From positions 1 to 47,783 of the forward strand of contig CALLVC010000265.1 of assembly GCA_938010785.1 (NCBI GenBank): a stretch of 47,783 nucleotides of DNA. Reading direction: 5' to 3'. The stretch comes from an uncultured Saprospiraceae bacterium. Lineage in GTDB: Bacteria; Bacteroidota; Bacteroidia; Chitinophagales; Saprospiraceae. Shown in pieces: positions 18,747 to 47,783 of this stretch (its first letter is position 1; each line of letters begins with the position of its first letter). The notes under the pieces were generated by a model. It saw only the letters and a program-made list of their open reading frames with translations, was not told where the DNA came from and did not search any database. The position numbers and the translations under genes are program-made.

Positions 18747-19808
18747 CTAAAACTTAGGGCAAACCACCTTCCCCCGCTTTCTATTTTTTGCAGGAACAAT
18801 GTAAGTAAAAGAGACTTCAAAAGCCCCACGTGCATTAGAGGCAGGCGTTAGTTGAGAGGTATTAATATCATAACTTAAACCGAGCGTCCAAGTTTTCATT
18901 TCTAGCATACTAGTAACAGTAATGGCTTCAAAAGCGACCCCAGCTATTTCTTTGCCAGAGACATGTGCCCAAGCGCCAATCCTTAAAGCTAAATCATCTT
19001 CATCTCCAGAGGTATATCTAAAGTTAGTACCAATATTTACATCGGTTGCAGGACCTTGAAAAAAGACAGAAGCAGCGGGTAATAGACTTAAATATTTTGT
19101 GATGCCAAGTTCGCCACCAAAATGGCCAACGTATCTTCTATGTAATCGGTCAACTCCCGTTTCAAAAATGGAGATATTTGGGGTGTTTAAGTGATAAATG
19201 GCGCCACCAGCATAAAAGGAATAATCATTGCCAACAATATACCACAATAAGCCTGCACTAAAATCGGGATAAACGCCACCTGTTCTACTTTCTATTTCAC
19301 CAGAAGGTAAATCAAAATTGATGACTTCGTTGCCAGCGTCGTATTGTCCACTAAACCAGAGGTCGCTCCAATCTAAGGAATGTTGTCCGATGCCAGCTTG
19401 TGCCCCTGCGACTAGATAGAAATCTTTTTCTTTGCCACCACCCAAATATTTCATGAAGGATAGATTGGCTTGCCCTTTCGTTCTTTTGAGTCTTGAAGCA
19501 CCCGCTTGGTCTTGTAAGGCATTAAAGCCAATACCTAAATAATCACTTTTTCTGATGTTTATGCGATAATCATAATGAGCAGCTACAGTTCTAAATGGGG
19601 CTTCGTTGAGGACAGAAGACCATTGGTCTCTATAGTTGATAATAAAGCGCATTTGGCCATCATGCACGACACTAAGTGCAGGGTTTAATTGGTCAGGAGC
19701 AGCATAAAATTGGGCAAACCGTGGGTCCTGTGCCATTGCGCTTTGCAAGATACCTAAGAAAAAGAAAAGATATAAGCCCCATTTTATGGGCCAGTTTTTA
19801 TAGCTCAT
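18747..19808 (-). CDS. Type IX secretion system membrane protein, PorP/SprF family
   Basis: QDPRFAQFYAAPDQLNPALSVVHDGQMRFIINYRDQWSSV; C-terminal KVVCPKF; directly follows the SprB-repeat protein gene. Confidence 0.88.
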   Translation of the reverse strand: MSYKNWPIKWGLYLFFFLGILQSAMAQDPRFAQFYAAPDQLNPALSVVHDGQMRFIINYRDQWSSVLNEAPFRTVAAHYDYRINIRKSDYLGIGFNALQDQAGASRLKRTKGQANLSFMKYLGGGKEKDFYLVAGAQAGIGQHSLDWSDLWFSGQYDAGNEVINFDLPSGEIESRTGGVYPDFSAGLLWYIVGNDYSFYAGGAIYHLNTPNISIFETGVDRLHRRYVGHFGGELGITKYLSLLPAASVFFQGPATDVNIGTNFRYTSGDEDDLALRIGAWAHVSGKEIAGVAFEAITVTSMLEMKTWTLGLSYDINTSQLTPASNARGAFEVSFTYIVPAKNRKRGKVVCPKF

Positions 19809-19812
19809 AAAA

Positions 19813-25800: not shown

Positions 25801-25992
25801 CCCAACTAAAGGATTTTTACAAATTGTCGTTTGAAGATTTTCATTGTTTTTATAATCATTAGTACTACCACCACTATCTGAAAAGAATCCACCACAGTCG
25901 TTTATCAAAAGGAGATTTTCATCCATTTGATAGTTCTGTCCAAAGGCAGTTCCATTCCAAAATAATAATAAAATAATAGTAGCTCTAATCAT
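19813..25992 (-). CDS. Giant T9SS type B cargo with CUB-like, PKD, two P-type domains, about 13 SprB repeats and a gliding-motility C-terminal domain
   Basis: 2059 aa; PKD FEWDFGDGQ...VSHVYEKAGGYRATLNITD; two domains with GVWTLKLSDDAG-like ends; repeats such as CFEMADGEATVKVTGGTPPYAFDWDNGQ...YTVMIEDDNNC; C-terminus KKVFVPTGFSPNGDGENDFLLIHG...FDRWGETVFQS...WDGTFKGQALNTGVFVW. Confidence 0.9.
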   Translation of the reverse strand: MIRATIILLLFWNGTAFGQNYQMDENLLLINDCGGFFSDSGGSTNDYKNNENLQTTICKNPLVGTHIRLTFSQIDLGPGDKLCFFDGLDTAADSILCAESFSNGFPFIVQATAANSTGCITVTFTSNSIEVGNGWEANIDCIPACQLIEAQIDQTTPASVPVDRGWIDICEGERVFFNGSGSFLQNDLVYAHSDATSTFEWDFGDGQFAVGNNVSHVYEKAGGYRATLNITDQFGCTNANFALQKVRVAPKPLFKIGNIPDALCLGDTLRLASSVGTDNITSPIEICNQDGAFLFNGIRSDSISLPDGNGASYETSIRFTDFNSGQVLNDIDDLQSICVNMEHSWLHDMEIRITCPSGNTVLLQNQSVINKEVYLGIPEDNDGITPIAGIGANYCWSPTSQNGTLTEFANNNDNSSPNETYNLPSGDFNSFESLEALLGCPLNGDWVITVTDLWEQDNGTIFSWSLDINPDLYPDLETFQTNIIGFQWENTGDIKDYEQDEIVIQPNSAGEANYVLEAIDNFGCVHDTAIQFMVLPNNHPDCLNCDKHLFQKDSLTICTGESIDLESAIDPFVLGVETFQTFPNQEFSHGTHPPENAYESPLQISNVPANEIKADGSNLISVCLDLTSEFNSDLVITLISPNGVHLNLSSENGGRNDGYLNTCFTANATRSITEATDGPFTGDYLPEEPFENLAGTDINGVWTLKLSDDAGAASTDVNVLKSWSMTFLSPSNATFTWSPSDNLSCTECTNPSASPTSTTSYILEKDFEGCIVKDTLQIKVLGIDETVLGISDFSLENGQLLINWDPVPGVDSYEISTNTQDWEPTSGPLFHIYENLSQNTPFNVQVRGVYDDFPCNTKFTSRAVVYKFCDLNATLGSNDLVTNCHKSEDAVVEINATGGDGIYTYTLNNESPQRNNRFDGLAPGEYSLLVEDLQTCADTITFEITAPPEITISFDTEVLDCFGDNDGTVTVLPTGGVGSFNVLSWAHTSSQDLTLNNLSSGQYFVTVADENNCEASDTLEIIEPSALQAIASEKPVTCFEMADGEATVKVTGGTPPYAFDWDNGQSGSAAIGLDIGDYTVMIEDDNNCQTQQTITVTQPEEITVDFQEEPLSCPGETDAALLANVEGGITPYKYKWSTGQTNQFTFGLKEDVYFLTVTDNNGCDKEVQKAISAPNPLAISVAYTPPSCSNGADGTATVSFLGGTAPYTFIWDDTTQQTTQTAINLSPDTYNVTVTDVNGCEAFQSILVEPASIITVNFDSNPTSCHNRSDGSVTANAVGGSGILTFQWENGNTNAFNENLLPGKYAVTIQDENNCQTIDTALVEGPPPLQVDSITQTPPLCHDGVDGRLQAFISGGVQPYNLNWDNNQSTANPYLGISSGDHVLSLSDGNGCTILPVSVNLAATPPITFQLNKNDNNCFDGREGAARVIVTGGGTQPYSYLWNDREAQTENTALDLIAGNYTVTITDGIGCTAQGAIEVTQPNSQISTSFLQTDTACFNQNTNRGVLTTQGGTGNTYQYNWSSGSSQNIANNLNAGKHIITITDENNCQIIDSVSVTEFDSITFSIIEAKPTCADATNGRMALSPITGGQGNGIADNYQINWSTAPNINQSFIDNLAGNTTYHVTVMDQIGCSQTLSRLLEAPEPISVILAKTDISCFGLQDGQIIVQATNNVNDIASVGWSANAINTTSDKAMDLPAGIYTFTLIDGNNCSVSVSDTIREPSAIVIEDIQLNPNLCVGDMKGRINISATGGTGTLNYNWSNGSTAPQLVNVASGNYSLELTDENDCSITESFELVAPNPLDGSAEATDVSCFGDANGTLIISPIGGKAPFSYSLDGNNFTGLSNIVGLTAGTYRTYIKDGNDCIWESENISIETPPVFEISILSDLTTIEQGDSTLLSARFLNNIGNVQYSWTANAPNTFNCEDLCDEIVIKPEGETRYELYAIDGNGCEATANINIQVAKTKKVFVPTGFSPNGDGENDFLLIHGKENLTIQSFTVFDRWGETVFQSNDLSVNNSKNTWDGTFKGQALNTGVFVWILEVVFPDGSVEIYKGSTTLIR

Positions 25993-29198: not shown

Positions 29199-31463
29199 AT
29201 GGAACTTACATACTACTTAAGCATACTATGGAGAAGAAAATGGCTAATTTTGTTGTCTGCAATCCTTGCAGGTGTTTTAGCCTATTATATAGTTTCCCTT
29301 AAGCCCCCAATTTACAAATCTGAGACTATCCTTTCTACTGGAGTAATTGACCCAACGGGTATCAATCCAGGAAAAGACAACCCTTTCATTCAGCAATTAC
29401 ATATTAAAATGAGTTTTAATAACTTAATACAATACGTGACTTCGCGTAGTTGTATTAATTTGTTGACCTTTCATTTGTTAAATCATGATTTAGAACCAGA
29501 CGAATTTGGAGATGGGCCATTTAGAGCACCTGAGGTTTTATCTAGTTATAACGAGGCATCTATAGATACCTTAAGTAACCTATTAGCAGTAAAACTGGAA
29601 CAATTAAAACCAGAATTTGAGCGACCAGAGGATGAACTATTCTTCAATAAGATAGCTAAAGATTATAAATATGATTATGAAAAGTTGAAACAAGACCATC
29701 TTCAAATTCAACGAATGGGGGAGACGGATTATGTAAAAATATCTTTTACTTCAGAAAATGCAGAATTATCTGCTTTTGCAGCTAGCAAATTTAGTAAATC
29801 TGTGATTGATTATTTTGAGTCAAAAAGAAATAGTGAAACAGATGAGGCCTTAGCCTATTTAAGCACAACTGCCCAAGCTAAAAAAGATAAACTAGACAAT
29901 AAGCAAAACGATTTAAAATCCTATAATTCAGGTAATCAATTGGTTGATTTGGTTTCTCAAAGAGAAGCTACGGTTAATCAGATTAGAGATTTAGAACAGC
30001 AAAAAAGTAATGCCCAAGCAGCTATAAACGCTAATGAGGCCACCATAAAAGATTTGGAGAAATTGATGAAAAAACCAAATTTGATGGATGAGGAGCCCGC
30101 CAAATTGGATGAAAATGATGCGGATAATTATGCAATTATTCAACTAAATAGAAAAATTGTCAATCGAAAGGAACTAGTTGCTATGTACACCAATAATTTA
30201 ATTGATGGTATTGGCAATAAACGAAAAAATGAATCATCTCTACGTTTGGTTAAAAAGCAATTAAATGAGGATATGAAGGCCTTGTCGAGATTGCAAAAGG
30301 AAAAAGTGGAGGAGAAAGTGGAAACTGAAGATGATACCAGAGAAAACGGGCTCTTTGATAGACATCTTTCTGCTACGATTGACCTCACCAACGCCAAAGA
30401 AGAAATGGCCATTATAGAGGAGAAATTAATCGAATTAAGGGCTAGGTCAAATAGTTTTGTATCAAATCAGGCTTATGTAACAAATCTTGAAAGAGAGATT
30501 AATATTGCCAAGGAGGATTATGAAATGGTCGTTAGAAAATTAGAGTTAGAACGATTAGAAACCAAAAGCTTAGATAGTCCTTTTACCATCATTGAACATG
30601 CCCAAATACCAGAAGAAGCGGAGTCTGATAAGAAAATATTATTTACGGCATTCTCAGGTGTGGTAGGTGCTTCAATGGCAACTTTCTTTATTTTTCTATT
30701 GGCCTTTTTGGATAATACAATGCATTCTCCCAATCAGTTTAAGGCTTTTACCGGTTTATCGCTTATTGGAAGTGTCATAAAAATTAATCATAAGAAACTC
30801 AATTTGCAAGAATTATTTGCAGGGGAAACTAAGGATAAAGTCATGGAAAGATTCAAAGAATTAATTCGTGATTTGAGGTTTAATCTGGAGAAAATCAAAG
30901 GAGGGAATATCTTCTTGGTAACTAGTCCAAGAGAAGATGAAGGAAAATCTTTTTTGATTACGATTTTGGCACATTCACTTTTATTAAAGCAAAAAAAAGT
31001 ATTGGTAATTGATACCAATTTTAAAAGAAATACACTTTCTACTTGGGCGGATAAAGCACTACCAGCGAGTTATGGACTCCATCAATTATTAGTAGATGCT
31101 AAGTTGACTGAACATTTTGCGGTAACAAGTATTAAGTCACCATTTAACAATACACCGATTGAATCAATTAGTAATTCTGGTAGGTCTCAATCTCCGCTAG
31201 AAGGACTGAATGAAGAAGAATTTCAATTGTTTTTAAGAAGATTATCAGAAAAATACGACTTTATTTTCATGGAGGGGGCAGCTTTAAATGAATATGCTGA
31301 TACCAAGGAGTTGATAGATTTTAGTGACAATGTGTTGGCTATTTTTAGCTCAGATTCAACCATGAGACAAGCAGATAAAGACTCCTTAGCCTTTTTAAAT
31401 GCTTTAGGAGATAAGTTTGGTGGTTCGATTTTAAATCGAATTAACCGAAAAAATATGGGATAA
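29199..31463 (+). CDS. Polysaccharide co-polymerase (Wzz/GumC-like) with degenerate BY-kinase-like C-terminal domain
   Basis: N-terminal Wzz TM region (LSILWRRKWLILLSAILAGVLAYYIVSLKPPIYKSE); coiled coil; C-terminal TSPREDEGKSFLITILAHSLLLKQKKVLVIDTNFKRNTLS. Confidence 0.85.
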   Translation: MELTYYLSILWRRKWLILLSAILAGVLAYYIVSLKPPIYKSETILSTGVIDPTGINPGKDNPFIQQLHIKMSFNNLIQYVTSRSCINLLTFHLLNHDLEPDEFGDGPFRAPEVLSSYNEASIDTLSNLLAVKLEQLKPEFERPEDELFFNKIAKDYKYDYEKLKQDHLQIQRMGETDYVKISFTSENAELSAFAASKFSKSVIDYFESKRNSETDEALAYLSTTAQAKKDKLDNKQNDLKSYNSGNQLVDLVSQREATVNQIRDLEQQKSNAQAAINANEATIKDLEKLMKKPNLMDEEPAKLDENDADNYAIIQLNRKIVNRKELVAMYTNNLIDGIGNKRKNESSLRLVKKQLNEDMKALSRLQKEKVEEKVETEDDTRENGLFDRHLSATIDLTNAKEEMAIIEEKLIELRARSNSFVSNQAYVTNLEREINIAKEDYEMVVRKLELERLETKSLDSPFTIIEHAQIPEEAESDKKILFTAFSGVVGASMATFFIFLLAFLDNTMHSPNQFKAFTGLSLIGSVIKINHKKLNLQELFAGETKDKVMERFKELIRDLRFNLEKIKGGNIFLVTSPREDEGKSFLITILAHSLLLKQKKVLVIDTNFKRNTLSTWADKALPASYGLHQLLVDAKLTEHFAVTSIKSPFNNTPIESISNSGRSQSPLEGLNEEEFQLFLRRLSEKYDFIFMEGAALNEYADTKELIDFSDNVLAIFSSDSTMRQADKDSLAFLNALGDKFGGSILNRINRKNMG

Positions 31464-31526
31464 TTCGGTAAGTTATTTCAGTTATTAAAATAAATTTATA
31501 GCCGAATCATCTTAACAAACACAGCG

Positions 31527-32918
31527 ATGCAAAAAGACAACACTAAAAGTTACTGGTTAATTTCCGGTCTCTATGCCTTTTTTGAAAAAGGTGCCAACTA
31601 CCTGTTTGGGTTCGGTAGTGTATTTATATTATATCGAGTTTTGGAAGTATCTGAAATGGGTATTTGGGTTTTATTTTTAACCATTTGTGCCTTTTTGGAA
31701 GTAACGAGAATGGGTTTGATTCAAAATGCGCTGGTTAAATTTTTATCTTCAGAGGACAAAGCGCTGCATGGAGAAATTAATACTGCTTCGTTATTTTTAA
31801 ATTTTGTCTTAACCGCACTTTTCGCTTGTTTTTTGTATCTTTTAGCTCCCTTTTGTGGATACATATTTGAAAGTCCCTCCATCATTCCCCTTTTGCATAT
31901 TTATGCTTTGACTACCTTGGTTTTAACACCAATGTATCAATCAAATTTCATACTCCAAGCCAATTTATCATTTAAAGGTATTTTTCTGAGTAATACTATT
32001 CGACAGGGGCCATTTTTTCTATTCCTGTTGTACTTGTATCTTTCAGATTCGCCAATAGCATTATTGCAATTAGCTCAATTTCAAGTCTTTACAGCTTGTT
32101 TAGGGAGTGCAGTAGCCGTTTATCATGCATGGCCTTATTTAAATTTTGCTAAAAAAGCGAAATGGGATTGGGTTAAAAAATTGGTGAATTTTGGCAAATA
32201 TGCAGTATCTACTAACTTAAGTATCATGCTCTATAAAAGTATGGATAAAATGATGCTGGGTGGCTTGATTTCAACTGCTTCTGTGGGTATTTATGATTTA
32301 GCGATTCGAATAACGAATTTAATGGAAGTACCAACATTTTCTGCCGCCGCAGTTGTTTTTCCTCAAAGTGCCAGAGAGATGGTCAATAATGGGAAAACGG
32401 GCGTGAAGAAAATGTATGAACAATCCGTAGGTGCGATATTAGGATTACTATTACCGATTATTTTGTTTGTAGAATTATTTCCCGAAATCATTATTTTAAT
32501 AATTGCGGGAGAAGAATATTTACCTGCAGTACCGCTATTGAGATTAACCATTTTATTCGGACTGTTTTTACCATTTGGAAGTCAAATGGGAACGGTTTTA
32601 GAATCGATTGGAAAGCCTCATATTAATTTTTATTGTACTGTATTTGGGTTTATCCTAAATGTCATTTTTAACTATTTATTTATTAGTTGGATGGGGATAA
32701 TGGGCGCCGCATATGGAACGCTGTTGACTTATTTTATCACATTTATCATTACCCAAGTGATTTTATATAAAATATTGAATGTCAGAACATTAAATGTATT
32801 TAAATACATTTGGGAATTTTATCAAAAAGGATTTGCATTAGCAAAAGATAAATTTAATTATTTTTTTCAAAAACCCAATATTGCCGCTGATATCCCCCCT
32901 AACCAAGGCAAGCATTGA
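31527..32918 (+). CDS. Polysaccharide flippase (Wzx/MATE-like)
   Basis: Multi-TM protein; KYAVSTNLSIMLYKSMDKMMLGGLISTASVGIYDLAIRI typical of oligosaccharide flippases. Confidence 0.85.
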   Translation: MQKDNTKSYWLISGLYAFFEKGANYLFGFGSVFILYRVLEVSEMGIWVLFLTICAFLEVTRMGLIQNALVKFLSSEDKALHGEINTASLFLNFVLTALFACFLYLLAPFCGYIFESPSIIPLLHIYALTTLVLTPMYQSNFILQANLSFKGIFLSNTIRQGPFFLFLLYLYLSDSPIALLQLAQFQVFTACLGSAVAVYHAWPYLNFAKKAKWDWVKKLVNFGKYAVSTNLSIMLYKSMDKMMLGGLISTASVGIYDLAIRITNLMEVPTFSAAAVVFPQSAREMVNNGKTGVKKMYEQSVGAILGLLLPIILFVELFPEIIILIIAGEEYLPAVPLLRLTILFGLFLPFGSQMGTVLESIGKPHINFYCTVFGFILNVIFNYLFISWMGIMGAAYGTLLTYFITFIITQVILYKILNVRTLNVFKYIWEFYQKGFALAKDKFNYFFQKPNIAADIPPNQGKH

Positions 32919-32985
32919 TATTAAAGTAAATCTGAAAGGAGCTGAATTCTGATTGATTAATCTTATGCTTTTTTGGTAGTGAAAT

Positions 32986-33097
32986 TCAGAAATCATATAT
33001 CAGAAATCATAGATCATACCTCTGTATAATTAGAATTTCTGAGCCTTATCACACAGATTTATGATGTAAAATTTATGATGTATGATTTATGATTTTT
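32986..33097. repeat. Two period-7 tandem arrays in inverted orientation
   Basis: tcagaaa-tcatata-tcagaaa-tcataga-tcata (32986-33018) and tttatga-tgtaaaa-tttatga-tgtatga-tttatga (33058-33092). Confidence 0.75.
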
Positions 33098-33200
33098 AAG
33101 CCAAGTTCTAAAAGATTTAAATCATTATATCAGATAATTTCTGTATTACCAATTCCCCCTGAATCCCCCAGATTCATATTAATAAATTTAAAAAAGAGTT

Positions 33201-34109
33201 ATGGGGAGGATTAACCAAGTTTTTAGGCGAATGTGTAATCTAGCAGCAACGCCGTTTGTGAAAGTTGGATTTTTAGGTAAAGTATTGGATGTTTTTTATC
33301 AAGAATACCAATACAATAAAATTTTAGCTACACAACAAAGCGTTCATCGAAAGTTGAAGGGTAATTTCAAAGAGGCTGAGGTAAAGTATGGCCCTTTCCA
33401 AGGGTTAAAATATCCAGAATTAGCTGGGTTTGGAAGTGAGCTGTATCCTAAATTATTAGGCTGTTATGAAGTAGAATTGTTTGATTGGGTGGAACGAATT
33501 CGTCCCAATAATTATGATAAAATTGTAAATATTGGTTGTGCAGAAGGGTATTATGCGGTAGGCTTAGGATTGATGTTTGAAAATTCATTAATTTATGCTT
33601 ACGATTTAGCCGAAAGGGCTCGAGAATTATGTACCGCGATGGGAAAAGAAAATGACATTTCGAATAGGTTAAATGTTTTTAGTAAATGTACGACCAATAC
33701 CTTAAAGAAATTAGATTTTGGAGAACGCTCCTTAATTGTTTGTGATTGTGAAGGCTTTGAAATGGAGTTATTCAAATCAGAAGTAATGGACAATATCAAA
33801 AATTGTGATATCCTAATTGAATTACATGATTTTATCAATCCAGATATTTCTAATAAAATGTTACCTCTTTTTGAAGAGACCCATAATCTAGTCATTTATA
33901 GGAGTATGGATGATGAATTGAAAATAATTCAGTTAAGTGAAAAATATAAGGAATTGCAGAAATTAACTCAATTCGAAAAGAAAATCGCTTTAGGTGAATT
34001 AAGACCAACCACGATGGAGTGGGCTTTTTTAACGCCTAAAAAGGCAATTTCTATTTCCGTTCCAAAAAGAAAGGAAAAAGAGGTGAATTTTATCGAAAAA
34101 GTTGGATAA
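33201..34109 (+). CDS. FkbM-like SAM-dependent methyltransferase
   Basis: YDKIVNIGCAEGYYAVGLGLMF (SAM motif I), SLIVCDCEGFEMELF, CDILIELHDF. Confidence 0.75.
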   Translation: MGRINQVFRRMCNLAATPFVKVGFLGKVLDVFYQEYQYNKILATQQSVHRKLKGNFKEAEVKYGPFQGLKYPELAGFGSELYPKLLGCYEVELFDWVERIRPNNYDKIVNIGCAEGYYAVGLGLMFENSLIYAYDLAERARELCTAMGKENDISNRLNVFSKCTTNTLKKLDFGERSLIVCDCEGFEMELFKSEVMDNIKNCDILIELHDFINPDISNKMLPLFEETHNLVIYRSMDDELKIIQLSEKYKELQKLTQFEKKIALGELRPTTMEWAFLTPKKAISISVPKRKEKEVNFIEKVG

Positions 34110-34136
34110 TAGTCTAAAATTATTAATAAGTAAACT

Positions 34137-34904
34137 ATGACAGAATCTTTATTATTGGAAGGCTTAAATTATGCAGAACAAAATTTTCTGGATGAAAATG
34201 CGGACCATTTAAAAGTAGACAAACGATTGGTTCGCAGCCTTTTAGATTTAGATGGTAAGCGAATCATGGACTTTGGTTGTGGCATGGGCGGTATGACCCT
34301 GTGGTATGCTAAGAACTGGGATTGTGAAGTGCATGGAGTGGATATTGATGGTCATCATATCCAAGTGGCCAACCAAATTAAAGCTAAGCACAATGTGCAA
34401 AATGTCCATTTTGCAAAGCGAAATGTAATTGAAGACCCATTAGATGGTAAGTTTGATTTTGTATTTTTAAATGATGTGGTAGAGCACATTCCTTTAGATA
34501 TTTTGCAAAATATTTTTCTCCAATTGGAAAAGATATTAGCTCCAGATGGGAAGATATTTGTCTCTTATCCACCTTGGAAAAGTCCATACGCATCCCATTT
34601 GAATCATGTAATTAAAATTCCTTGGTGTCAATTTTTACCAAAGTCGACTTTAGACGGTTTGATTGAGAAAAATAACCACCCAATCGTAGGAGAATTAGAA
34701 AGTGATTTAAGAGAAGCTTATGATGGACTGAATCATATGACACATGACAAAATTTCTAAGATTGTTGCAAACACCAGCTTAAAACAAGTCTATCGAAAAA
34801 GTCATTGCATACTAAATAGATTGCCTTTATTAGAAAGTGTTCCATTTAGAATATTTCCATTAAACTACCTGATTACCAAAGAATTCCTGATGGTCGGGAA
34901 ATAG
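34137..34904 (+). CDS. Class I SAM-dependent methyltransferase
   Basis: KRIMDFGCGMGGMTLWYAKNWDCEVHGVDIDGHHIQVANQ; FDFVFLNDVVEHIP. Confidence 0.88.
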   Translation: MTESLLLEGLNYAEQNFLDENADHLKVDKRLVRSLLDLDGKRIMDFGCGMGGMTLWYAKNWDCEVHGVDIDGHHIQVANQIKAKHNVQNVHFAKRNVIEDPLDGKFDFVFLNDVVEHIPLDILQNIFLQLEKILAPDGKIFVSYPPWKSPYASHLNHVIKIPWCQFLPKSTLDGLIEKNNHPIVGELESDLREAYDGLNHMTHDKISKIVANTSLKQVYRKSHCILNRLPLLESVPFRIFPLNYLITKEFLMVGK

Positions 34905-34972
34905 TTGTAAGTGGTTAGTGGTGAGTTGTAAATTTGGCTCAATACTGACCACTAACCACTGACCACTAACAA
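34904..34972. repeat. Paired period-7 tandem arrays in inverted orientation
   Basis: gttgtaa-gtggtta-gtggtga-gttgtaa (34904-34931) and ctgacca-ctaacca-ctgacca-ctaacaa (34945-34972), filling the gap between two genes. Confidence 0.85.
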
Positions 34973-34980
34973 CTTAAAAA

Positions 34981-36186
34981 ATGAGAGATTACGATATCAT
35001 ACTTTATACCTTGTTTCCGACAGATAACATCTATTCGTCGGTATCGCTATCTATGGCAAAGGAATTTGCAAAAAACAATCGAGTTTTTTATGTGAACAAG
35101 CCTTATTCCGTCAAAGATTTTGTTGCCAATTTGAATAATAAGAAGGTCAGAGAACGAGCACCAAAGTTATTAACCAATCAGATACAGTATGAAACAATAG
35201 AGAAAATTCCTCAAAATTTTGTGGCTGCCACACCGACTTTGTCTTTGCCAATTAACTGGTTACCAGTAGGAAAAACCTATAATTATTTGCAGGATTACAA
35301 TCGGAGTGTGGTGCTAAAAACCGTTAAGAAATTCATCAAGGATTATAAAATAAAAAAATATATTTATCTCAATTGCTACAATCCATATGGAGCGGCGGTT
35401 TTGCCAAAATCTTATGGAGCGGCTTTAAATGTTTATCAAAGTATCGATGACATTAGTCAAAATGATTACACCGTTAAGCATGGTTTAAATCTTGAGAATG
35501 AGGCGATTAAGCAAGCCGATGTAACATTGGTTACCTCCAAAGAATTGTGGAATTTAAAATCAAAAATATCTAAGGATACTTTTATTTTAAATAATGCGGT
35601 AGATAATACTGTATTCAAAAGAACTTTGACAGAGACCTTTCTTAAACCTAAAGAATTAGAAGGGAGAACAGGAAAAGTAGTGGGGTTCATTGGTAATTTA
35701 GATGAATTGAGGGTCAATTATCCGCTAATTAAAAAAGCAGCATTAGCACACTCGGATAAGACATTTCTATTCGTGGGGCCATTAAATAATACGGAATACT
35801 TAGAATTAGGATTACCAGATATTCCAAATATCATTTTTGCAGGTGGTAAAAATTTATATGAATTGCCGCAGTATCTCCAGCATATGGATTGCTGTTTGAT
35901 TCCTTTTTTATGTAACACCTTGACCAAAAGTATTTATCCTCTAAAAATTAACGAATATCTCTCAGGTGGGAAACCTGTCATTGCGACAAATTTTTCAGAG
36001 GATATTCAAAGTTTTAAAGACCAAATTTACTTGGCAGATTCAGATGATGCTTTTGTGAAATTGATTGACGAAGCCTTATCACCCCAAAGCGAACAGGCAA
36101 CAAAAGACAGAATTGCTTTAGCAGAATCGAATACCTGGACGGCTAGAATTAGTCAGTTTTGGGATATTATGACACCTTATCTTTAA
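34981..36186 (+). CDS. Glycosyltransferase (GT-B, group 1-like)
   Basis: VVGFIGNLDELRVNYPLIKKAALAHSDKTFLFVGPLNN... LIPFLCNTLTKSIYPLKINEYLSGGKPVIATNF. Confidence 0.85.
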   Translation: MRDYDIILYTLFPTDNIYSSVSLSMAKEFAKNNRVFYVNKPYSVKDFVANLNNKKVRERAPKLLTNQIQYETIEKIPQNFVAATPTLSLPINWLPVGKTYNYLQDYNRSVVLKTVKKFIKDYKIKKYIYLNCYNPYGAAVLPKSYGAALNVYQSIDDISQNDYTVKHGLNLENEAIKQADVTLVTSKELWNLKSKISKDTFILNNAVDNTVFKRTLTETFLKPKELEGRTGKVVGFIGNLDELRVNYPLIKKAALAHSDKTFLFVGPLNNTEYLELGLPDIPNIIFAGGKNLYELPQYLQHMDCCLIPFLCNTLTKSIYPLKINEYLSGGKPVIATNFSEDIQSFKDQIYLADSDDAFVKLIDEALSPQSEQATKDRIALAESNTWTARISQFWDIMTPYL

Positions 36187-36233
36187 ACAAACTATGGTGA
36201 AAACATAAAACATTGGCTTTCAATTTCAAATAT

Positions 36234-36268
36234 CGGTCAACCGTATACCGTATACCGTCAACCGTTTT
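36234..36268. repeat. Period-7 tandem repeat
   Basis: cggtcaa-ccgtata-ccgtata-ccgtcaa-ccgtttt. Confidence 0.85.
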
Positions 36269-36288
36269 AAAACCTAAAGACAAACATT

Positions 36289-37620
36289 GTGATACCAAAA
36301 ATTATACACTATTGTTGGTTTGGAACAAAGCAAATTCCAGAAGATTATCAAGGTTACATTGATGGTTGGAAAAAACTAATGCCTGATTATGAAATAATGC
36401 TTTGGAATGAGGCAAATAGTCCGATGCATTTACCTTATTTGCAAGCTACATTAAAGTATAAAAAATGGGCGAATCTCTCTAATTTCGTTCGAATCTATGC
36501 GCTTTATCATCACGGTGGTATTTATATGGATACGGATATGGAGGTGTTAAAATCCTTAGAGGAATTTCGACAATATGGAAGTTTTTTAGGACTTGAATTA
36601 GGAGAAAAAAATGATAAAGATATTATTGTAAATAATGCCATTTTTGGGGCAGAAAAAGGCCATCCCTTTATTGAAAAATGTATGGATTTTTATCTACAAC
36701 ATTTTGATGGTAGAGATACGGCTTTAGATTCTTCACCATATCTTGTAACTAGATTATTGAAGGAAACAGGAATGCATAAATATGGACGCCAAAATATTGG
36801 AGGCGTAGAATTATTTCCAAAAGAATATTTTTATCCATACCACATAACAGAAAAATTCACCCCAGAATGTGTTAAAGAGAATACTTATACTATCCATCAT
36901 TGGGGGTATTCGTGGGGTACAAAACCTTTTTCCTACAGATTGGAACATCTGAAAAAGGTAACAAAGGACAAAATATATAAGACCTTACCAGTTCATCAAA
37001 AAGGGTATTTAAAGCACGGAAAATTAGTACGGGATGTATTAAAAGGAGGAACGGTAAAAGCCGGCCCTTTTGAAGGGGTAAAATTACCTTTGTCAAAGGA
37101 ATATGAATCTGCCAAACTACCCTTAAAATTATCTGGAATTTATAAGGAAGAACTTCAATTGATTTTATATCAATTAACAAATAGGACCTATAAAACTATT
37201 TATTTCAATGGAGAACATCCTGAATATTTTACAAAAGGTCTAGCTAAATTATTTCCGAATGCGACCATCAAAGATTTGTCTGCTGAAAAGGACAATAGTT
37301 TGATGGTTAAAAATATCGGGGCCGATTCTTTATTGGTTACTAATAGTGCTTTAGCTAGTCAAATGGCTGAAGATATAACTAAAGTATCTAAAGGTGTAGA
37401 TATGGTTTTAGAATTTAGGTATCACTTGCCAGCTACCCAGAAGGAGCAGCTTAGTGAAGTCATAGGTGCTAATCAAGAACTATATTGTGTGCCAAGTAAA
37501 TTAAATTATCAATACGAACAAAACGCTTTTTTACAAAACTATCCTCTAAAGGAAATCGAAGCACATCTTAAAAAAGAGGTGACGGATGTACACGAATGGG
37601 TGGTGATAAAGAGCAAATAA
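36289..37620 (+). CDS. DXD-type glycosyltransferase (OCH1/capsular-like) fused to a degenerate FkbM-methyltransferase-like domain
   Basis: MIPKIIHYCWFGTKQIPEDYQGYIDGWKKLMPDYEIMLWNE...YALYHHGGIYMDTDMEVLKSL; the C-terminal about 200 aa resemble the 33201 product. GTG start. Confidence 0.82.
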   Translation: MIPKIIHYCWFGTKQIPEDYQGYIDGWKKLMPDYEIMLWNEANSPMHLPYLQATLKYKKWANLSNFVRIYALYHHGGIYMDTDMEVLKSLEEFRQYGSFLGLELGEKNDKDIIVNNAIFGAEKGHPFIEKCMDFYLQHFDGRDTALDSSPYLVTRLLKETGMHKYGRQNIGGVELFPKEYFYPYHITEKFTPECVKENTYTIHHWGYSWGTKPFSYRLEHLKKVTKDKIYKTLPVHQKGYLKHGKLVRDVLKGGTVKAGPFEGVKLPLSKEYESAKLPLKLSGIYKEELQLILYQLTNRTYKTIYFNGEHPEYFTKGLAKLFPNATIKDLSAEKDNSLMVKNIGADSLLVTNSALASQMAEDITKVSKGVDMVLEFRYHLPATQKEQLSEVIGANQELYCVPSKLNYQYEQNAFLQNYPLKEIEAHLKKEVTDVHEWVVIKSK

Positions 37621-37633
37621 TTAAAAACAGCTT

Positions 37634-37753
37634 ATGAACAATAGATTCAAAGATGTAAAATTGACTTCAAAAGACCGCTTAATAGAATTTTTAGGAAATG
37701 CTTTTGCGATTCTTCTTTTATTAGCTTTCTTTTTAAAAATAGTAATATTTTAA
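37634..37753 (+). CDS. Small single-TM protein, MNNRFKDVKLTSKDRLIEFLGNAFAILLLLAFFLKIVIF
   Basis: 39-aa ORF filling the gap between two glycosyltransferase genes; TAA ends 1 nt before the next ATG; not in the supplied track. Confidence 0.5.
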   Translation: MNNRFKDVKLTSKDRLIEFLGNAFAILLLLAFFLKIVIF

Positions 37754-37754
37754 A

Positions 37755-38600
37755 ATGATGAATAGATTTTCAACACCAGATTGGGTAAAAAGACATTATT
37801 TTGATTTTCGAAATTATGATACCGTTTCATCGACCCAAATTGAAAAAATCAAAAATGGATTGGCCAAATTTAAGGTGTTTAATCCTGTTGCTTCTATAGT
37901 CATACCAGCCTATAACGAAGAAGAGAATTTATTAAGCACTTTGTCTTCTTTTGCTGATATTCAACCTGAGGTGCCAACAGAATTATTAATTGTCAACAAT
38001 AATTCCAATGACCGGACACAAGAAATTCTAGACCGATGTGGCGTAAATTCCATTTTTCAACCAAAACAAGGTAGAACCTACGCACGTCAACTAGGATTGG
38101 AAACAGCCAGAGGAGAGATTTTGTTAAGTGCAGACGCAGATAGTATTTATCCTGCTGATTGGGGAAATTTATTTGTAAAAACTTTATTGAAAAACGAAGA
38201 TGTAGCGGTAGTTTATGGCAGATATTCTTTCATTCCAAGTAAAAGCATTAATCGTTTTGGATTGGCCTTTCATGAGCTCGGTGGAGAGATTATGTTTGAT
38301 AGAAGAAAGGGCTTGGATTTATGTATCAATGCAGTTGGATTTAATACTGGGTTTAGAAAAGCGCAGGCTTTAGCTGTAGGCGGATATGACCCTGAAAAGT
38401 TAGAATTTGAAAATCAAAGAAGTGAAGATGGCTGGTTGGCACAAAGTCTATATAAAAAATTCGGTAATATCTTACTTGTAAAATCACCTAATCGGGTATG
38501 GACAAGTGATAGGAGATTATTAGAAGAAGGGAGTTTAGCAAAAGCTTCCGTGAATAGAGTTATCAGATATTTAAATGGAACAAATTTAGCCAATACCTAG
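37755..38600 (+). CDS. Family 2 glycosyltransferase
   Basis: ASIVIPAYNEEENLLSTLSSFADIQPEVPTELLIVNNNSNDRTQEIL; ARGEILLSADADSIYPADW. Confidence 0.9.
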   Translation: MMNRFSTPDWVKRHYFDFRNYDTVSSTQIEKIKNGLAKFKVFNPVASIVIPAYNEEENLLSTLSSFADIQPEVPTELLIVNNNSNDRTQEILDRCGVNSIFQPKQGRTYARQLGLETARGEILLSADADSIYPADWGNLFVKTLLKNEDVAVVYGRYSFIPSKSINRFGLAFHELGGEIMFDRRKGLDLCINAVGFNTGFRKAQALAVGGYDPEKLEFENQRSEDGWLAQSLYKKFGNILLVKSPNRVWTSDRRLLEEGSLAKASVNRVIRYLNGTNLANT

Positions 38601-38629
38601 AAGCTAACATAAACAAGAAAGAACAAACT

Positions 38630-40111
38630 ATGGAGAAAGCTATAAAAAAATGGATTAAACATCACTTTTTGATGGAAAAGTTAGACACGGTACTTGGTAT
38701 GGTGTTACTAATGTTCTTATCTGTATTTGTAGCTGTGGTGGTCGGAAAACTAGGATTTCTAGGTGGAGCAGCATTGTTAGTCGTGACGTTAGGTATTTTT
38801 TTAGTATTAGGGGCAATGTTTAATCTCTATTTGGGGCTTTATGTGATTCTAGTCATGTCTATTTTGGTCTCCTTCCTCTCCAAAATAGTGGATTTGCCCT
38901 ATGGACTTTCCTTAGATTTATTATTAGTTGTATTGGCTTTAGGGGTTATTATGAAACAACTGAAGGATAGAGACCTTTCCTTTGCCAAAAATCCTATTTC
39001 CTTACCGATTATAGTTTGGGTATTTTACAATATGATTCAGGTAATCAATCCGATTGCTGCATCAAGATTAGCATGGGCTTTTACCGTTAGGAGTATGGCA
39101 TTGCTTATTCTGTTGTATTTTATTGCCGCTTATGCCCTTAATAGTTATCGTAGAACCATTAATATTTTCAAATTCATGCTGGGCCTAGCATTTGTTTCCG
39201 CTTTGTATGGTTTGAAACAAGAGTTTTTTGGTTTTACAGACTTTGAATTGGCCTGGCTTTATTCAGACCCTGCACGATTTCAATTAATATTCCAGTGGTC
39301 TAGGATGCGGGTTTTTTCCTTCTTTTCAGACCCTACAAATTATGGGATTTACATGTCTTACATGTCCGTGATGTGTTTTATTTTGGCTTTGGGAAAATTC
39401 AAAATTTGGCAAAAAGCACTTTTGGGCTTTGCAGGTGTTTGTATGTTGCTGGCAATAGCTTATGCAGGTTCAAGAACACCAGTAGTGTTGATACCCTTTG
39501 GCTTTGCAGTTTTCACCATGTTGAGCTTGAAAAGGAATATAATTATTGCCATGATGGCAGTTGGGATATTAGGAGGTGCTTTTTTAATGAAATCCACTGG
39601 TAATGCAGTATTATTTAGGATACAATCAGCCTTTATGCCAAAAAATAGTGGGGATACCATGGGGGTTCGATTTGAAAACCAGAAAAAAATTAAACCATTT
39701 ATACAATCCCATCCCTTTGGCGCAGGATTGGGGAGTGTTGGAGAGTGGGGGCAACGTTTTTCTCCAGATACTTTTTTAGCCAATTTTCCGCCAGATAGTG
39801 GTTACGTTAGGGTAGCGGTCGAACTAGGTTGGTTTGGATACTTGCTTTATTGTTGGCTGCTTTATACCATTGTGCGAATGGGAATACGATACTATCTGCG
39901 GGTCAAAAACGAACAAATGAAGACGATATACTTAGCTCTGACCACCATGATGTTTATGCTTATTTTAGCCAGTTATGTCCAGGAAGCTATCGTCCAATTA
40001 CCAACGAGTATTCATTTTTATGTTTGTCTGGCTGTGCTTGTTCGTTTGAAGGATTTTGAAGCAGCAGCAGAGTTGGAAATAAATGGGAAACCAAAAATTT
40101 TGAATGAATAA
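38630..40111 (+). CDS. O-antigen ligase/polymerase (Wzy/WaaL-like)
   Basis: Multi-TM protein; LLAIAYAGSRTPVVLIPFGFAVF and HPFGAGLGSVGEWGQRFSPDTFLANFPPDSGYVRVAVELGWFGYLLY. Confidence 0.85.
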   Translation: MEKAIKKWIKHHFLMEKLDTVLGMVLLMFLSVFVAVVVGKLGFLGGAALLVVTLGIFLVLGAMFNLYLGLYVILVMSILVSFLSKIVDLPYGLSLDLLLVVLALGVIMKQLKDRDLSFAKNPISLPIIVWVFYNMIQVINPIAASRLAWAFTVRSMALLILLYFIAAYALNSYRRTINIFKFMLGLAFVSALYGLKQEFFGFTDFELAWLYSDPARFQLIFQWSRMRVFSFFSDPTNYGIYMSYMSVMCFILALGKFKIWQKALLGFAGVCMLLAIAYAGSRTPVVLIPFGFAVFTMLSLKRNIIIAMMAVGILGGAFLMKSTGNAVLFRIQSAFMPKNSGDTMGVRFENQKKIKPFIQSHPFGAGLGSVGEWGQRFSPDTFLANFPPDSGYVRVAVELGWFGYLLYCWLLYTIVRMGIRYYLRVKNEQMKTIYLALTTMMFMLILASYVQEAIVQLPTSIHFYVCLAVLVRLKDFEAAAELEINGKPKILNE

Positions 40112-43819: not shown

Positions 43820-46800
43820 ATGGCCAAACCACAATTACACGCCCTTTTAATTGCAATTAACAATTACCATCCTCAATCTAGAGTTGGAGGTCTAGCAGGT
43901 TGTATTAATGATAGAGATGCAGTGGCAAAATTTCTTAAAAAGCATTATGCCCATTTAACTCCTCAGTTAACAAAATTGACGGATGCCGAAGCCACTCGGA
44001 CCAATATTATTACCACTTTTAGAGAACAAATTGTCAAAAAAGCAAAGAAGGGTGATTCTGTGATTTTATACTATGCAGGTCATGGTTCTTATTCAACATC
44101 AGCACCTGAATTTGCAAAATTTGATGGTCTAGGGCAAGACGAAACCTTTGTTTGTTATGATAGTCGATTGCCTAATAACCACGATTTAACGGATAAAGAA
44201 TTAGCGGTCCTTTTATCAGAAGTTAAAAAAGACATTCATTTAGTTGTAATAGCAGATGCTTGTCATTCTGCCTCTGTGACCAGAACGGTTGATTTTGCTC
44301 GAGTGCCGCAGGAAATTGGTTCCGCAGCTTTTAATTTGGCAGCCAAACGGTTTGAACAGCCGCGAACTGTCTCTAGAAATATGTCATCCTATTTGTTGTC
44401 TGCCGATAATTATTATACAAAAATAGCTGGAAATATATCCATTCCAAGGTCTAAGCATTTACTCATGTCCGCTTGTAATAGAGATGAAGAAGCATGGGAG
44501 ACGACGGACCGAAGAGGATTATTCACGACTTATCTGCTGAAGGTGCTTAATAAAAATAGAAATATTAGCTATGCAGATTTGTTTGCTCAAGTTAGAACCC
44601 TAGTTTATAATACAGCAAAAAATCAACAGCCAACTTTATATCCATTTGAAGGGTTTAATCCAAATACTGTTTTTTTAGGAGGAAAAGATCAACCCAATAA
44701 AAATCGACATCAAATTGTAGCAAAAGATACGGGTGGTTGGCAAATGGAGTTAGGGGCTATAAATGGTGTACCTACCAGAAATTTGGATAAGGCTAATTTG
44801 CTAATTGGGGTTTATGAAGGACTAGGAGAACAAGCAACTTTTAAAGGGGCTGTTGGTGTTTCTGCTGTTGGGATTACCCATTTAACTTTAAAAGATGAGC
44901 TAAATTTATTAGTAGATAGAAATTATTGGGGCGAATTGCAGACGATACCAACTGCCATTTTGGTAAATCTCAAAGGTCGAAAAAAGTTTGTCAAAAGCTT
45001 CCTAGAAGAGTATAACAAACAACCTTCCGCTTACTTTAATTTTGTTGAAAAAGTAAACGCTGCCAAATATACATTGTATGTATCCAAAAAAGCTTGGAAA
45101 ATAAAGCATACCGAGACAGGAAAGGAAATTGACTTGATTCCAAGTGGAGGAGCAGCGGCTATTGACCAATTAAAAAAACAATTAGAGCATATTACCAATT
45201 GGGAAAACATTGCCTCCTTAGAAAATAAAGCCACCACTATTTCTGATAGTATTGAAGTTAGATTTAAAGAAGAAAAAAGTCGGGATAATTTCGTTACCTA
45301 CACAGATTCGGATATCATTCTTGATTATTATAAAGATGGCGAAGATACATCAAGAAATGGCAAGCCAAAACCAATTTGGTATCAAATTCAAGTTAGAAAT
45401 ATCAGTGATAAAAATTTATACGTCTCTTTATTGCATTTGAGTGCAAAATTTGGCGTATCTCCGCATTTCGCTACGGGAGTCATTCCTGCCAATTCAGGAT
45501 GGAAAACATTGGATGACCAACATGGGTTAGTTATTGAAAAAAAGGAGGATATTCAAGTAAAAGATTTATTTAAAATTGTAGTAAGCACTCGAGATTTTGA
45601 TAGTTACAAATATGCTTTGGAGGAGATGCAACAAACTACTCGCTCAACGGTAACTAGAGAAGATTATGAGGAAGCTCCAATGGATGATTGGTTTACAAGA
45701 ACAATTTCGGTAACGACTATTCGACCACAAGGAATTATTGGAAGAGGTCCTTTAAAAATTAATGGACTCACTTTTAATAAGCATGATGAGTTTGAGGCAG
45801 AAATATCTTTTGCACCAATGCAAGGAATTTCTAGAAGCACGCACAGCACAAATAATCTGGCGGCATTTTTTGATAAAGGGGAGGGTACAATAATTAATTT
45901 TGGTAAAACAGGTTCAAGAAGCACCCAACAAGACCGTTCTATAATAGAGTTATCAGGTATCAAGAATCCCGACTCCTTAGCTAAAAACCCTTTGACCTTC
46001 AAGGTGGATGCTACATTGAGTGGCGGCGAAAATCTTTTGCCAGTCACCATGGAAAATGGTTTTATTATTCCAATTGGTCAAAGTACCGTTTTGGCGGACG
46101 GAAGCACTCAAATAAGTATTGAACATCTTCCAGAAAATGCGGATTTACCTCCTGGTGCACAAGGTAAAAGAAGTTTAGGTAAAGCATTATGGTTTAGCTT
46201 ACTAAAACTGGCAGGCTTAAAAGAGGAGGCTTTCTTATTGCGAAAGGTAAGTTTTCGAAAAAGTATCGCAAGTCGAGTGCCCCTTCATAAAACAAGTGTC
46301 AAAAGAGCGAAAAATATTTTGCTAGTTATTCATGGAATTATTGGAGACACTAAAACAATGATTACCAATCTAGAATTTCTAAAGAAAGAAGGCCATTATG
46401 ATTTGATTTTGACCTACGATTATGAAAATTTGAATACCAAAATTGAGGATATAGCCACTAATTTGGATGAACAATTGAAAGCCTACGGCCTTGGCCCAAA
46501 TGATGGAAAAACATTTGATATATTAGCCCATTCTATGGGAGGATTGGTGAGCAGATATTTGATAGAATTTATCAGAAAAGGAGATACTTTAGTAGACCAT
46601 TTATTTATGTTTGGTACACCCAATGGAGGGTCTATTTTTGGAGAAATACCAGTTTACCGAGATAAATTAGTAAAGTTGCTAACTGTAGGATTGAATTTTG
46701 GAAAGGCTTGGTTAGGTGGAGTAGGAACAGCCTTAGGTATTTTAAATAAGGTGTTAATGGGTTCTAAACCAATTACCGTGACCTTGGGACAAATGAGTGC

Positions 46801-47125
46801 CAACAGTGAATTTATTGATAAACTAAAAGACGGTCAAAAAGGACACACAAAATATCGAGTAATTGCTGGGGACATCTCGGATTATCACAATATCAAAGGA
46901 GCTAGATTCAAGCGCTTTGTTGAAAAAGTTTTACTCAAAATAGGGAAAACTGCTAATTCCAATGAGCCTAATGATATAGCGGTCTTAGTAGAAGATATTC
47001 GGTCTGTTCCAGATGCTATTGCAGCTGAGAAATACGATGTATGTTGTCACCACATGAATTATTTTGAATCAGAAGATGGTTTGATTGCCTTAAGGGAAAT
47101 TGTAGAGAACAGGCAAATTCAGTAA
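43820..47125 (+). CDS. Caspase-like (C14) protease fused to a C-terminal alpha/beta-hydrolase (lipase/PGAP1-like)
   Basis: Caspase: ALLIAINNYH...LAGCINDRDAVAKFL...VILYYAGHGS...HLVVIADACHSASVTR. Hydrolase: ILLVIHGIIGDTKTM...FDILAHSMGGLVSRYLIEF...LFMFGTPNGGS, with candidate Asp (NDIAVLVED) and His (CCHHMNYFES) near the C-terminus. Confidence 0.88.
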   Translation: MAKPQLHALLIAINNYHPQSRVGGLAGCINDRDAVAKFLKKHYAHLTPQLTKLTDAEATRTNIITTFREQIVKKAKKGDSVILYYAGHGSYSTSAPEFAKFDGLGQDETFVCYDSRLPNNHDLTDKELAVLLSEVKKDIHLVVIADACHSASVTRTVDFARVPQEIGSAAFNLAAKRFEQPRTVSRNMSSYLLSADNYYTKIAGNISIPRSKHLLMSACNRDEEAWETTDRRGLFTTYLLKVLNKNRNISYADLFAQVRTLVYNTAKNQQPTLYPFEGFNPNTVFLGGKDQPNKNRHQIVAKDTGGWQMELGAINGVPTRNLDKANLLIGVYEGLGEQATFKGAVGVSAVGITHLTLKDELNLLVDRNYWGELQTIPTAILVNLKGRKKFVKSFLEEYNKQPSAYFNFVEKVNAAKYTLYVSKKAWKIKHTETGKEIDLIPSGGAAAIDQLKKQLEHITNWENIASLENKATTISDSIEVRFKEEKSRDNFVTYTDSDIILDYYKDGEDTSRNGKPKPIWYQIQVRNISDKNLYVSLLHLSAKFGVSPHFATGVIPANSGWKTLDDQHGLVIEKKEDIQVKDLFKIVVSTRDFDSYKYALEEMQQTTRSTVTREDYEEAPMDDWFTRTISVTTIRPQGIIGRGPLKINGLTFNKHDEFEAEISFAPMQGISRSTHSTNNLAAFFDKGEGTIINFGKTGSRSTQQDRSIIELSGIKNPDSLAKNPLTFKVDATLSGGENLLPVTMENGFIIPIGQSTVLADGSTQISIEHLPENADLPPGAQGKRSLGKALWFSLLKLAGLKEEAFLLRKVSFRKSIASRVPLHKTSVKRAKNILLVIHGIIGDTKTMITNLEFLKKEGHYDLILTYDYENLNTKIEDIATNLDEQLKAYGLGPNDGKTFDILAHSMGGLVSRYLIEFIRKGDTLVDHLFMFGTPNGGSIFGEIPVYRDKLVKLLTVGLNFGKAWLGGVGTALGILNKVLMGSKPITVTLGQMSANSEFIDKLKDGQKGHTKYRVIAGDISDYHNIKGARFKRFVEKVLLKIGKTANSNEPNDIAVLVEDIRSVPDAIAAEKYDVCCHHMNYFESEDGLIALREIVENRQIQ

Positions 47126-47452: not shown

Positions 47453-47677
47453 ATGAATTTTCAACAAAGCTTGCCTTTAATTTTATGCATACTAATTGTG
47501 GCCTGTAAAAATGCCCCCCCTTTTGAAGCTACCAATAGAAAGGAAAACGAACCTCTAGCAATACCTGAATCACTTCCCATGAAGTCTATAGAATTGTCAG
47601 ATATTTCTACCTTCAAAGTAGATGGAAAAAATTGGACAATCGGAAAGATTGATTTACAATGGCAACTTACCGTTTGA
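47453..47677 (+). CDS. Short lipoprotein-like ORF
   Basis: MNFQQSLPLILCILIVACKNAPPFE: lipobox LIVAC; 74 aa. Confidence 0.5.
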   Translation: MNFQQSLPLILCILIVACKNAPPFEATNRKENEPLAIPESLPMKSIELSDISTFKVDGKNWTIGKIDLQWQLTV

Positions 47678-47783
47678 AATGAAAACCATAAAAGCAATGA
47701 AAGATGGTTTTAGTATCGAATTCACCCAGCCAGTTAATAGAGCTACCGCAGCCAATCCTGAATCTTATGCCATCAATGATTTC
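47622..47783 (+). CDS. Start of an out-of-frame ORF, truncated by the window end
   Basis: MEKIGQSERLIYNGNLPFEMKTIKAMKDGFSIEFTQPVNRATAANPESYAINDF..., open to the last base in the +1 frame relative to 47453-47677. Confidence 0.5.
   Translation, partial: MEKIGQSERLIYNGNLPFEMKTIKAMKDGFSIEFTQPVNRATAANPESYAINDF

Follow-up and report, generated by a model that had tools for sequence, protein, structure and literature searches.

The window analysed here, a stretch of 47,783 nucleotides from an uncultured Saprospiraceae bacterium (contig CALLVC010000265.1), carries close to its end, on the forward strand, a gene whose single open reading frame (ORF; ATG at 43820, stop codon at 47123-47125, 1101 codons) encodes a metacaspase-type peptidase joined, through a beta-rich middle, to a lipase-like alpha/beta-hydrolase (Table 1). 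The catalytic residues of both enzymes are invariant in distant homologues, conserved arginines mark the disordered loops of the chain, and relatives of the gene are often located near nSTAND1, CHAT or VMAP genes. It appears rather probable that the protein serves a STAND/CHAT-type conflict network as an effector under protease control, whether the cut is made in cis or in trans; the full mechanism, in which Arg-specific cleavage of a single chain would arm the lipase-like domain, could equally well prove right or wrong.

The analysis of the protein with Pfam disclosed Peptidase_C14 at residues 7-274 (E 3.2e-28, 99.4 bits, cut-off 21.4) and the alpha/beta-hydrolase-type profile DUF7379 at residues 834-968 (E 1.6e-13, 51.4 bits, cut-off 33), and the generic "caspase" model of PADLOC also matched it. 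The ORF and these matches bear out the original prediction, made on the letters of the window, of one 1101-residue caspase and lipase-like fusion. The motifs that it had read as catalytic, YAGHGS (H88), DACHSA (C148) and AHSMGG (S905), are located where it placed them, and D1052 and H1078 can be assigned as the plausible Asp and His partners that it mentioned. None of the five residues varies among the 40 full-length homologues used for every conservation count given here (six phyla, 23-51% identity to the window protein), which is far beyond chance.

The closest solved structures to the first domain are metacaspases (GSU0716, 3bij; ScMca1; TbMCA2; AtMC4), and a Foldseek search with the first part of the AlphaFold2 (AF2) model retrieved GSU0716 (E 3e-14), AtMC4, AtMC9 and TbMCA2. 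In the HMMER alignment, Cys28, Asp31 and Asp146, invariant in the homologues and forming the putative S1 pocket, occupy the places of Cys92, Asp95 and Asp211 of TbMCA2, which make up the S1 pocket of that Lys/Arg-specific metacaspase (PMC4357240, PMC6426788). With a His/Cys dyad in a p20 caspase fold and an acidic S1 pocket, the domain shares the features of the C14B metacaspases and orthocaspases (TbMCA2, AtMC4, GSU0716), to which the window protein adds two beta modules and a C-terminal lipase-like effector; the pocket, being as in Arg/Lys-specific metacaspases, predicts cleavage after Arg or Lys. An assignment to the EACC1 caspases was rejected (NCBIfam caspase_w_EACC1, 32.5 bits against a cut-off of 140).

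At the other end of the chain, the nearest solved proteins are bacterial lipases, with those of Proteus, Burkholderia and Bacillus retrieved by Foldseek for the last part of the model, and DUF7379 is matched by 36 homologues out of 36. The profile score above the cut-off and the Ser-Asp-His triad place the domain within the DUF7379/lipase fold. Palm_thioest, PGAP1 and LCAT give weak matches, too; no paper naming DUF7379 was found in the literature search. The alpha/beta-hydrolase fold, the triad and a helical lid are shared with true bacterial lipases (Proteus, Burkholderia, BlEst2), whereas the window domain is fused behind a protease and has no apparent secretion signal (no dedicated signal-peptide program was used). 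Since there is no transmembrane-like segment in the protein (highest 19-residue Kyte-Doolittle mean 1.21), a cytoplasmic location fits, and secretion or membrane anchoring was rejected for lack of a hydrophobic segment.

The AF2 model of the whole protein (mean predicted local distance difference test, pLDDT, 78.6) contains the caspase part, two beta modules and the lipase-like part; the beta-rich middle of about 500 residues that had been supposed earlier is thus split into two modules (about 292-600 and 624-787) with a disordered loop, 605-620, between them. The same region modelled alone also gave two beta-rich modules (pLDDT 82, predicted template modelling score, pTM, 0.76). DUF4384 matches a part of it in two homologues out of 36. 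When this region alone was searched with Foldseek, the matches were weak and mixed, of Ig-like and beta-sandwich type (best E 1e-3), and gave no convincing solved relative, so that the modules are left without a domain name.

Outside the lipase lid, the AF2 model has five disordered segments (150-172, 605-620, 669-674, 697-704 and 774-787), of which the four of the middle region are disordered in the middle-only model, too. The low-confidence segments hold nine positions conserved at 80% or more, and five of these are arginines, one per segment, against 5 of 136 such positions elsewhere (Fisher p 6e-5). When the loop following the catalytic Cys is left out, arginine accounts for four of the five conserved low-confidence positions (p 4e-5), and the probability that five random segments of the same lengths would all hold such an arginine column is about 2e-5. 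Column 155 is Arg in 39 homologues and Lys in one, next to an invariant T154; column 608 is Arg in 33 and Lys in four, and the loop 605-620 holds at least one Arg in all 40. Across the homologues the loop arginines are replaced mostly by Lys, and they sit in loops of variable length with variable flanks. In the window protein the sequences around R155, R608, R672, R700 and R784 are VTR/TVD, TTR/STV, ISR/STH, GSR/STQ and GKR/SLG (the slash follows the arginine). A Ser follows Arg784 in 28 of the 40 homologues, and a cut at this residue would free a domain of 317 residues. The boundary between the two beta modules was rejected as the sole cleavage site, in that its loop occurs also in hydrolase-less paralogues and R784 directly precedes the hydrolase.

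The full-length architecture is present in the genus, family and order of the window organism and, among GTDB species, in Bacteroidota, Cyanobacteriota, Pseudomonadota, Actinomycetota and Chloroflexota, with a partial one in Acidobacteriota; it is also carried by Nostoc, Anabaena, Rhizobium and Deinococcus plasmids. Its C-terminal half is patchy (two of 297 genomes sampled across the phylum). In the maximum-likelihood tree, proteobacterial members fall among those of Bacteroidota, and Rhizobium, Deinococcus and Actinomycetota are joined, a pattern that some horizontal transfer could have produced; several long branches call for caution. A sister species harbors the orthologue at the same NhaB-flanked site, split by contig ends; since the ratio of nonsynonymous to synonymous substitution rates (dN/dS) between the two is 0.051 at the caspase end and 0.037 at the hydrolase end, the window gene is under purifying selection and very probably functional.

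The earlier statement that the neighbours provide no defence context holds for the window locus, where NhaB lies upstream, the contig ends about 660 bp downstream and no defence gene is near the fusion gene, but not for the family. Genes for nSTAND1, CHAT or VMAP proteins occur within 6 kb of 18 of 39 fusion loci, against 3 of 51 control loci, i.e., weaker and mostly hydrolase-only matches of the same scan (Fisher p 9e-6); when the loci that had supplied the query domains are left out, the proportion is 12 of 32 against 3 of 51 (p 7e-4). Many members adjoin proteins with nSTAND1 NTPase, WD40/TPR, EAD11, CHAT or VMAP domains, the commonest neighbours being CHAT and other caspase genes. Beside six of them (L032, L033, L043, L045, L055 and L061) CHAT and nSTAND1 are encoded by separate genes, and another (L042) lies next to a CHAT-nSTAND1-WD40 fusion; L043 is from Chitinophaga deserti and L045 from Dyadobacter fermentans. 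Downstream of the L043 member come CHAT, MoxR-like AAA and vWA genes, and downstream of the L059 member CHAT-VMAP and AAA genes. In a Nostoc plasmid ORF of 3057 residues (L121:3491-12664), the caspase-lipase architecture is fused to a second caspase and to a region that, from reading the sequence, resembles a STAND NTPase; the C-terminal part of this ORF reads like a periplasmic ligand-binding protein.

The genome of the window organism itself harbors, on contig C595, a paralogue of residues 4-603 (caspase and module 1) in a CHAT - nSTAND1/WD40 - caspase operon (L131 47-7953), likely an intact STAND/caspase conflict system, whose genes are separated by only a few bases, and, on contig C587, a caspase with the effector-associated domain EAD11. 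No adjacent nSTAND1 and CHAT genes are found at the window locus, no MoxR AAA, vWA or VMAP gene is evident among the window ORFs, and the genome gave no VMAP-C match in a search that had no positive control. The window protein looks like a hydrolase-armed, solitary form of the caspase component of STAND/CHAT gene sets.

Complete active sites kept together in six phyla, a pocket of the Arg/Lys type together with a conserved Arg/Lys in each disordered loop, which self-cleavage would require, and the STAND/CHAT/VMAP link of the family speak in part for the self-cleaving cell-death or defence protein that had been proposed; the accompanying view of a one-polypeptide module is probably too narrow, because the family rather resembles the caspase/effector part of STAND and CHAT systems made up of several genes, with one member fused to a caspase-STAND region. 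The N-terminal peptidase would cut after Arg or Lys; in many relatives it would probably be triggered by a CHAT protease and an nSTAND1/WD40 or TPR sensor encoded next to it, or by a VMAP/MoxR complex. It would then cleave the chain (in cis or in trans) in at least one of the Arg-marked loops (R608, R672, R700, R784, perhaps R155), and this would release or unblock the hydrolase, which might then attack lipids or acyl esters, so that the cell would be killed or arrested as in abortive-infection defence. Since the window gene is solitary in this genome, it might be activated by a sensor encoded elsewhere, the C595 operon being a candidate, or by a direct stress signal. The most specific version, a widespread family of self-arming lipases in which an Arg-specific caspase and a lipase zymogen share one chain, are triggered by an NLR-like nSTAND1 sensor and CHAT, and use up to five Arg loops, is put forward tentatively and with some doubt; such a family would be a bacterial, lipid-attacking counterpart of the lytic death triggered by inflammasomes and caspases.

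Several observations weigh against the cleavage mechanism proposed here. The pTM of the full model, 0.47, leaves the placement of the domains relative to each other uncertain, and sequence and fold do not settle whether the substrate would be a lipid, a thioester or another acyl compound. Neither the window gene nor its sister-species orthologue has a sensor gene beside it (NhaB and ordinary downstream genes are found there), and the control loci differ from the fusion loci in taxonomy. Arginines like R784 and R608 are kept in a homologue devoid of its own caspase (L039), and R608-like ones in hydrolase-less paralogues; because they occur in such relatives, there is room for cleavage by a partner or for a structural role, and the loop arginines could be structural. 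Thr154-Arg155 is very near the active site, making R155 an unsafe cleavage candidate, and the loop 605-620 contains several arginines in a loose alignment, so that the aligner may have stacked column 608.

Among the other explanations, the one that survives best, although unlikely, is a cascade in trans, in which the caspase would cut other proteins or be cut by CHAT or another caspase, the hydrolase would be an independently regulated second arm and the loops would be cut by a partner. The prevalence of CHAT and other caspase genes among the neighbours, the arginines of the caspase-less homologue and the proposal of peptidase cascades for such systems (PMC7159879) agree with it, but the invariant S1 pocket of the family suits the arginines of its own loops, and many members, the window protein included, have no neighbouring protease. 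It is still less probable that the loop arginines serve the structure or bind a ligand, with caspase and lipase cooperating without cleavage, e.g., by allosteric gating: the hydrophobic residues conserved after R784, the invariant T154 beside R155 and the persistence of the arginines in caspase-less and hydrolase-less relatives would suit such a role, whereas low-confidence loops of variable length, variable flanks and replacements mostly by Lys do not. A degradative or housekeeping enzyme (a general protease-lipase, or a factor of protein quality or membrane turnover, with no part in defence or death) would account for a solitary, NhaB-adjacent gene under purifying selection that is kept in a sister species, but it is hardly to be expected of a family that is rare and patchy in the phylum, carried on plasmids, linked to STAND/CHAT/VMAP genes and not evidently secreted.

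The literature already records fusions of a caspase with an abhydrolase and, in conflict systems, pairings of caspases with hydrolases. Three cyanobacterial orthocaspase-abhydrolase fusions, likened to the window family by description and not by accession, were listed in 2020 (Osc7112_0662, Cri9333_0714 and Nos7107_1322; PMC7475262); like the window protein, they combine a caspase p20 and an alpha/beta-hydrolase in one protein, and the cyanobacterial homologues found in the present analysis have its full-length architecture. The portion of that paper drawn on here gives the domain combination only, read as a "dual specificity" protease, and does not describe a lipase-type fold, a STAND/CHAT linkage or loop arginines. 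For the VMAP conflict systems, a strict pairing of caspase and alpha/beta-hydrolase in the neighbourhood and a proteolytic release of effectors were proposed (Kaur et al. 2020, PMC7159879). These ternary vWA-MoxR systems share the caspase/hydrolase coupling, and part of their gene set is present at the L043 and L059 loci; in them, however, the hydrolase is a neighbouring gene, whereas the window has a single chain with no MoxR, vWA or VMAP gene nearby. In Canu (KaeCanABC, 2025) it was demonstrated experimentally that a caspase arms a pro-nuclease against phage T4 (PMC12799240), and the cutting of disordered insertions by a caspase-family protease to arm a hydrolytic effector is a tested precedent for the mechanism considered here. 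The Canu effector, however, is a separate metallo-beta-lactamase (MBL)-fold nuclease gated at conserved glycines, and not a lipase-like domain of the same chain with Arg loops; no separate MBL-fold pro-nuclease neighbour is evident at the window locus. An earlier example of caspase and lipase in one Bacteroidota protein is the metacaspase-amidase-GDSL-lipase protein of Chitinophaga pinensis (2012, PMC3501461), whose GDSL lipase and amidase represent another lipase family and another architecture. To this record the present analysis adds the extent of the family, its lipase-type fold, the loops marked by conserved arginines and a CHAT/nSTAND1 association measured against control loci.

Table 1. 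Position of the fusion gene and of its features in the window, with the evidence for each (aa, amino acid residues; R and K counts refer to the 40 homologues)
Feature	Position	Strand	Evidence
Caspase-module 1-module 2-lipase-like fusion protein, 1101 aa	43820..47125	+	ORF list, Pfam, 40 full-length homologues, dN/dS
Metacaspase-type peptidase domain (p20+p10), aa 3-290	43826..44689	+	Peptidase_C14 E 3.2e-28; nearest solved structures
Caspase catalytic His88 (YAGHGS)	44081..44083	+	invariant 40/40
Caspase catalytic Cys148 (DACHSA), S1-pocket Asp146 just before	44261..44263	+	invariant 40/40
Loop following catalytic Cys, disordered, aa 150-172; Thr154-Arg155 conserved	44267..44335	+	pLDDT <50
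Beta-rich module 1, aa 292-600	44693..45619	+	AF2; weak DUF4384 relation; also in hydrolase-less caspase paralogues
Loop between the modules, disordered, aa 605-620, candidate for cleavage (around TTR608STVTREDY)	45632..45679	+	pLDDT <50
Beta-rich module 2, aa 624-787; Arg672, Arg700 and Arg784 conserved in its loops	45689..46180	+	AF2, conservation
Arg672 in disordered loop 669-674	45833..45835	+	38 R/2 K of 40
Arg700 in disordered loop 697-704	45917..45919	+	35 R/2 K of 40
Arg784 (GKR/SLG) in disordered loop 774-787, directly before hydrolase	46169..46171	+	38 R/1 K of 40
Lipase-like alpha/beta-hydrolase domain, aa 788-1101, helical lid ~939-984	46181..47122	+	DUF7379, Foldseek, AF2
Nucleophile Ser905 (AHSMGG)	46532..46534	+	invariant 40/40
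Catalytic acid Asp1052 (PNDIAV)	46973..46975	+	invariant 40/40
Catalytic base His1078 (CHHMNYF)	47051..47053	+	invariant 40/40

Some further arrangements can be seen around other members of the family. A caspase-subtilisin fusion (L061:11258-13876) comes straight after one of them, and downstream of three related members there is a protein with a guanylate-cyclase domain and TPR (L032:11952-14261, L033:8965-11199, L055:12198-14429), each time beyond a small gene on the opposite strand; these proteins might make a nucleotide signal. The Methylomonas fluvii homologue (L063:7989-12807) is split by an insert containing a 344-residue ORF on the opposite strand, perhaps a transposon. In a protein of 1299 residues (L038:6366-10265) the order is reversed, the lipase-like domain preceding a caspase-like one that has DAPF in place of DCCHS and is probably a pseudo-protease.

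In the window, the ORF at 47475-47783, downstream of the fusion gene, begins like a lipoprotein-type protein of 616 residues of the sister species (L027:9928-11778) and then runs on inside the gene that comes next there (L027:7925-9877); either about 3 kb has been deleted or the contig end is misassembled. Farther upstream are a PorP/SprF-like gene beside a repeat-rich protein of 2059 residues whose C-terminal region is of the gliding/type IX secretion system (T9SS) type (18747-25992), and a polysaccharide/glycosyltransferase cluster with Wzz-like, flippase, methyltransferase, glycosyltransferase and Wzy-like genes (29199-40111). The scan of the window against Rfam gave no match. With the window protein as query, IMG/VR gave no match and a phage collection a weak caspase match only; the Foldseek search of viral proteins retrieved metacaspases and hydrolases of giant viruses as separate proteins, with no named caspase-hydrolase fusion among the matches listed.

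In the bacterial caspase pathways tested so far, pores (gasdermins) are released or nucleases armed (Canu). If a caspase here arms a lipase of its own chain in connection with STAND sensors and CHAT proteases, the attack on membrane lipids would join the death effectors controlled by caspases, and the caspase/alpha-beta-hydrolase pairing that comparative genomics predicted in 2020 would gain a mechanism. The silent neighbours at the window locus should not be taken as the absence of a connection with defence, and the protein would represent a compact system in which predictions can be made at the level of single residues, namely R608, R672, R700, R784, C148 and S905.

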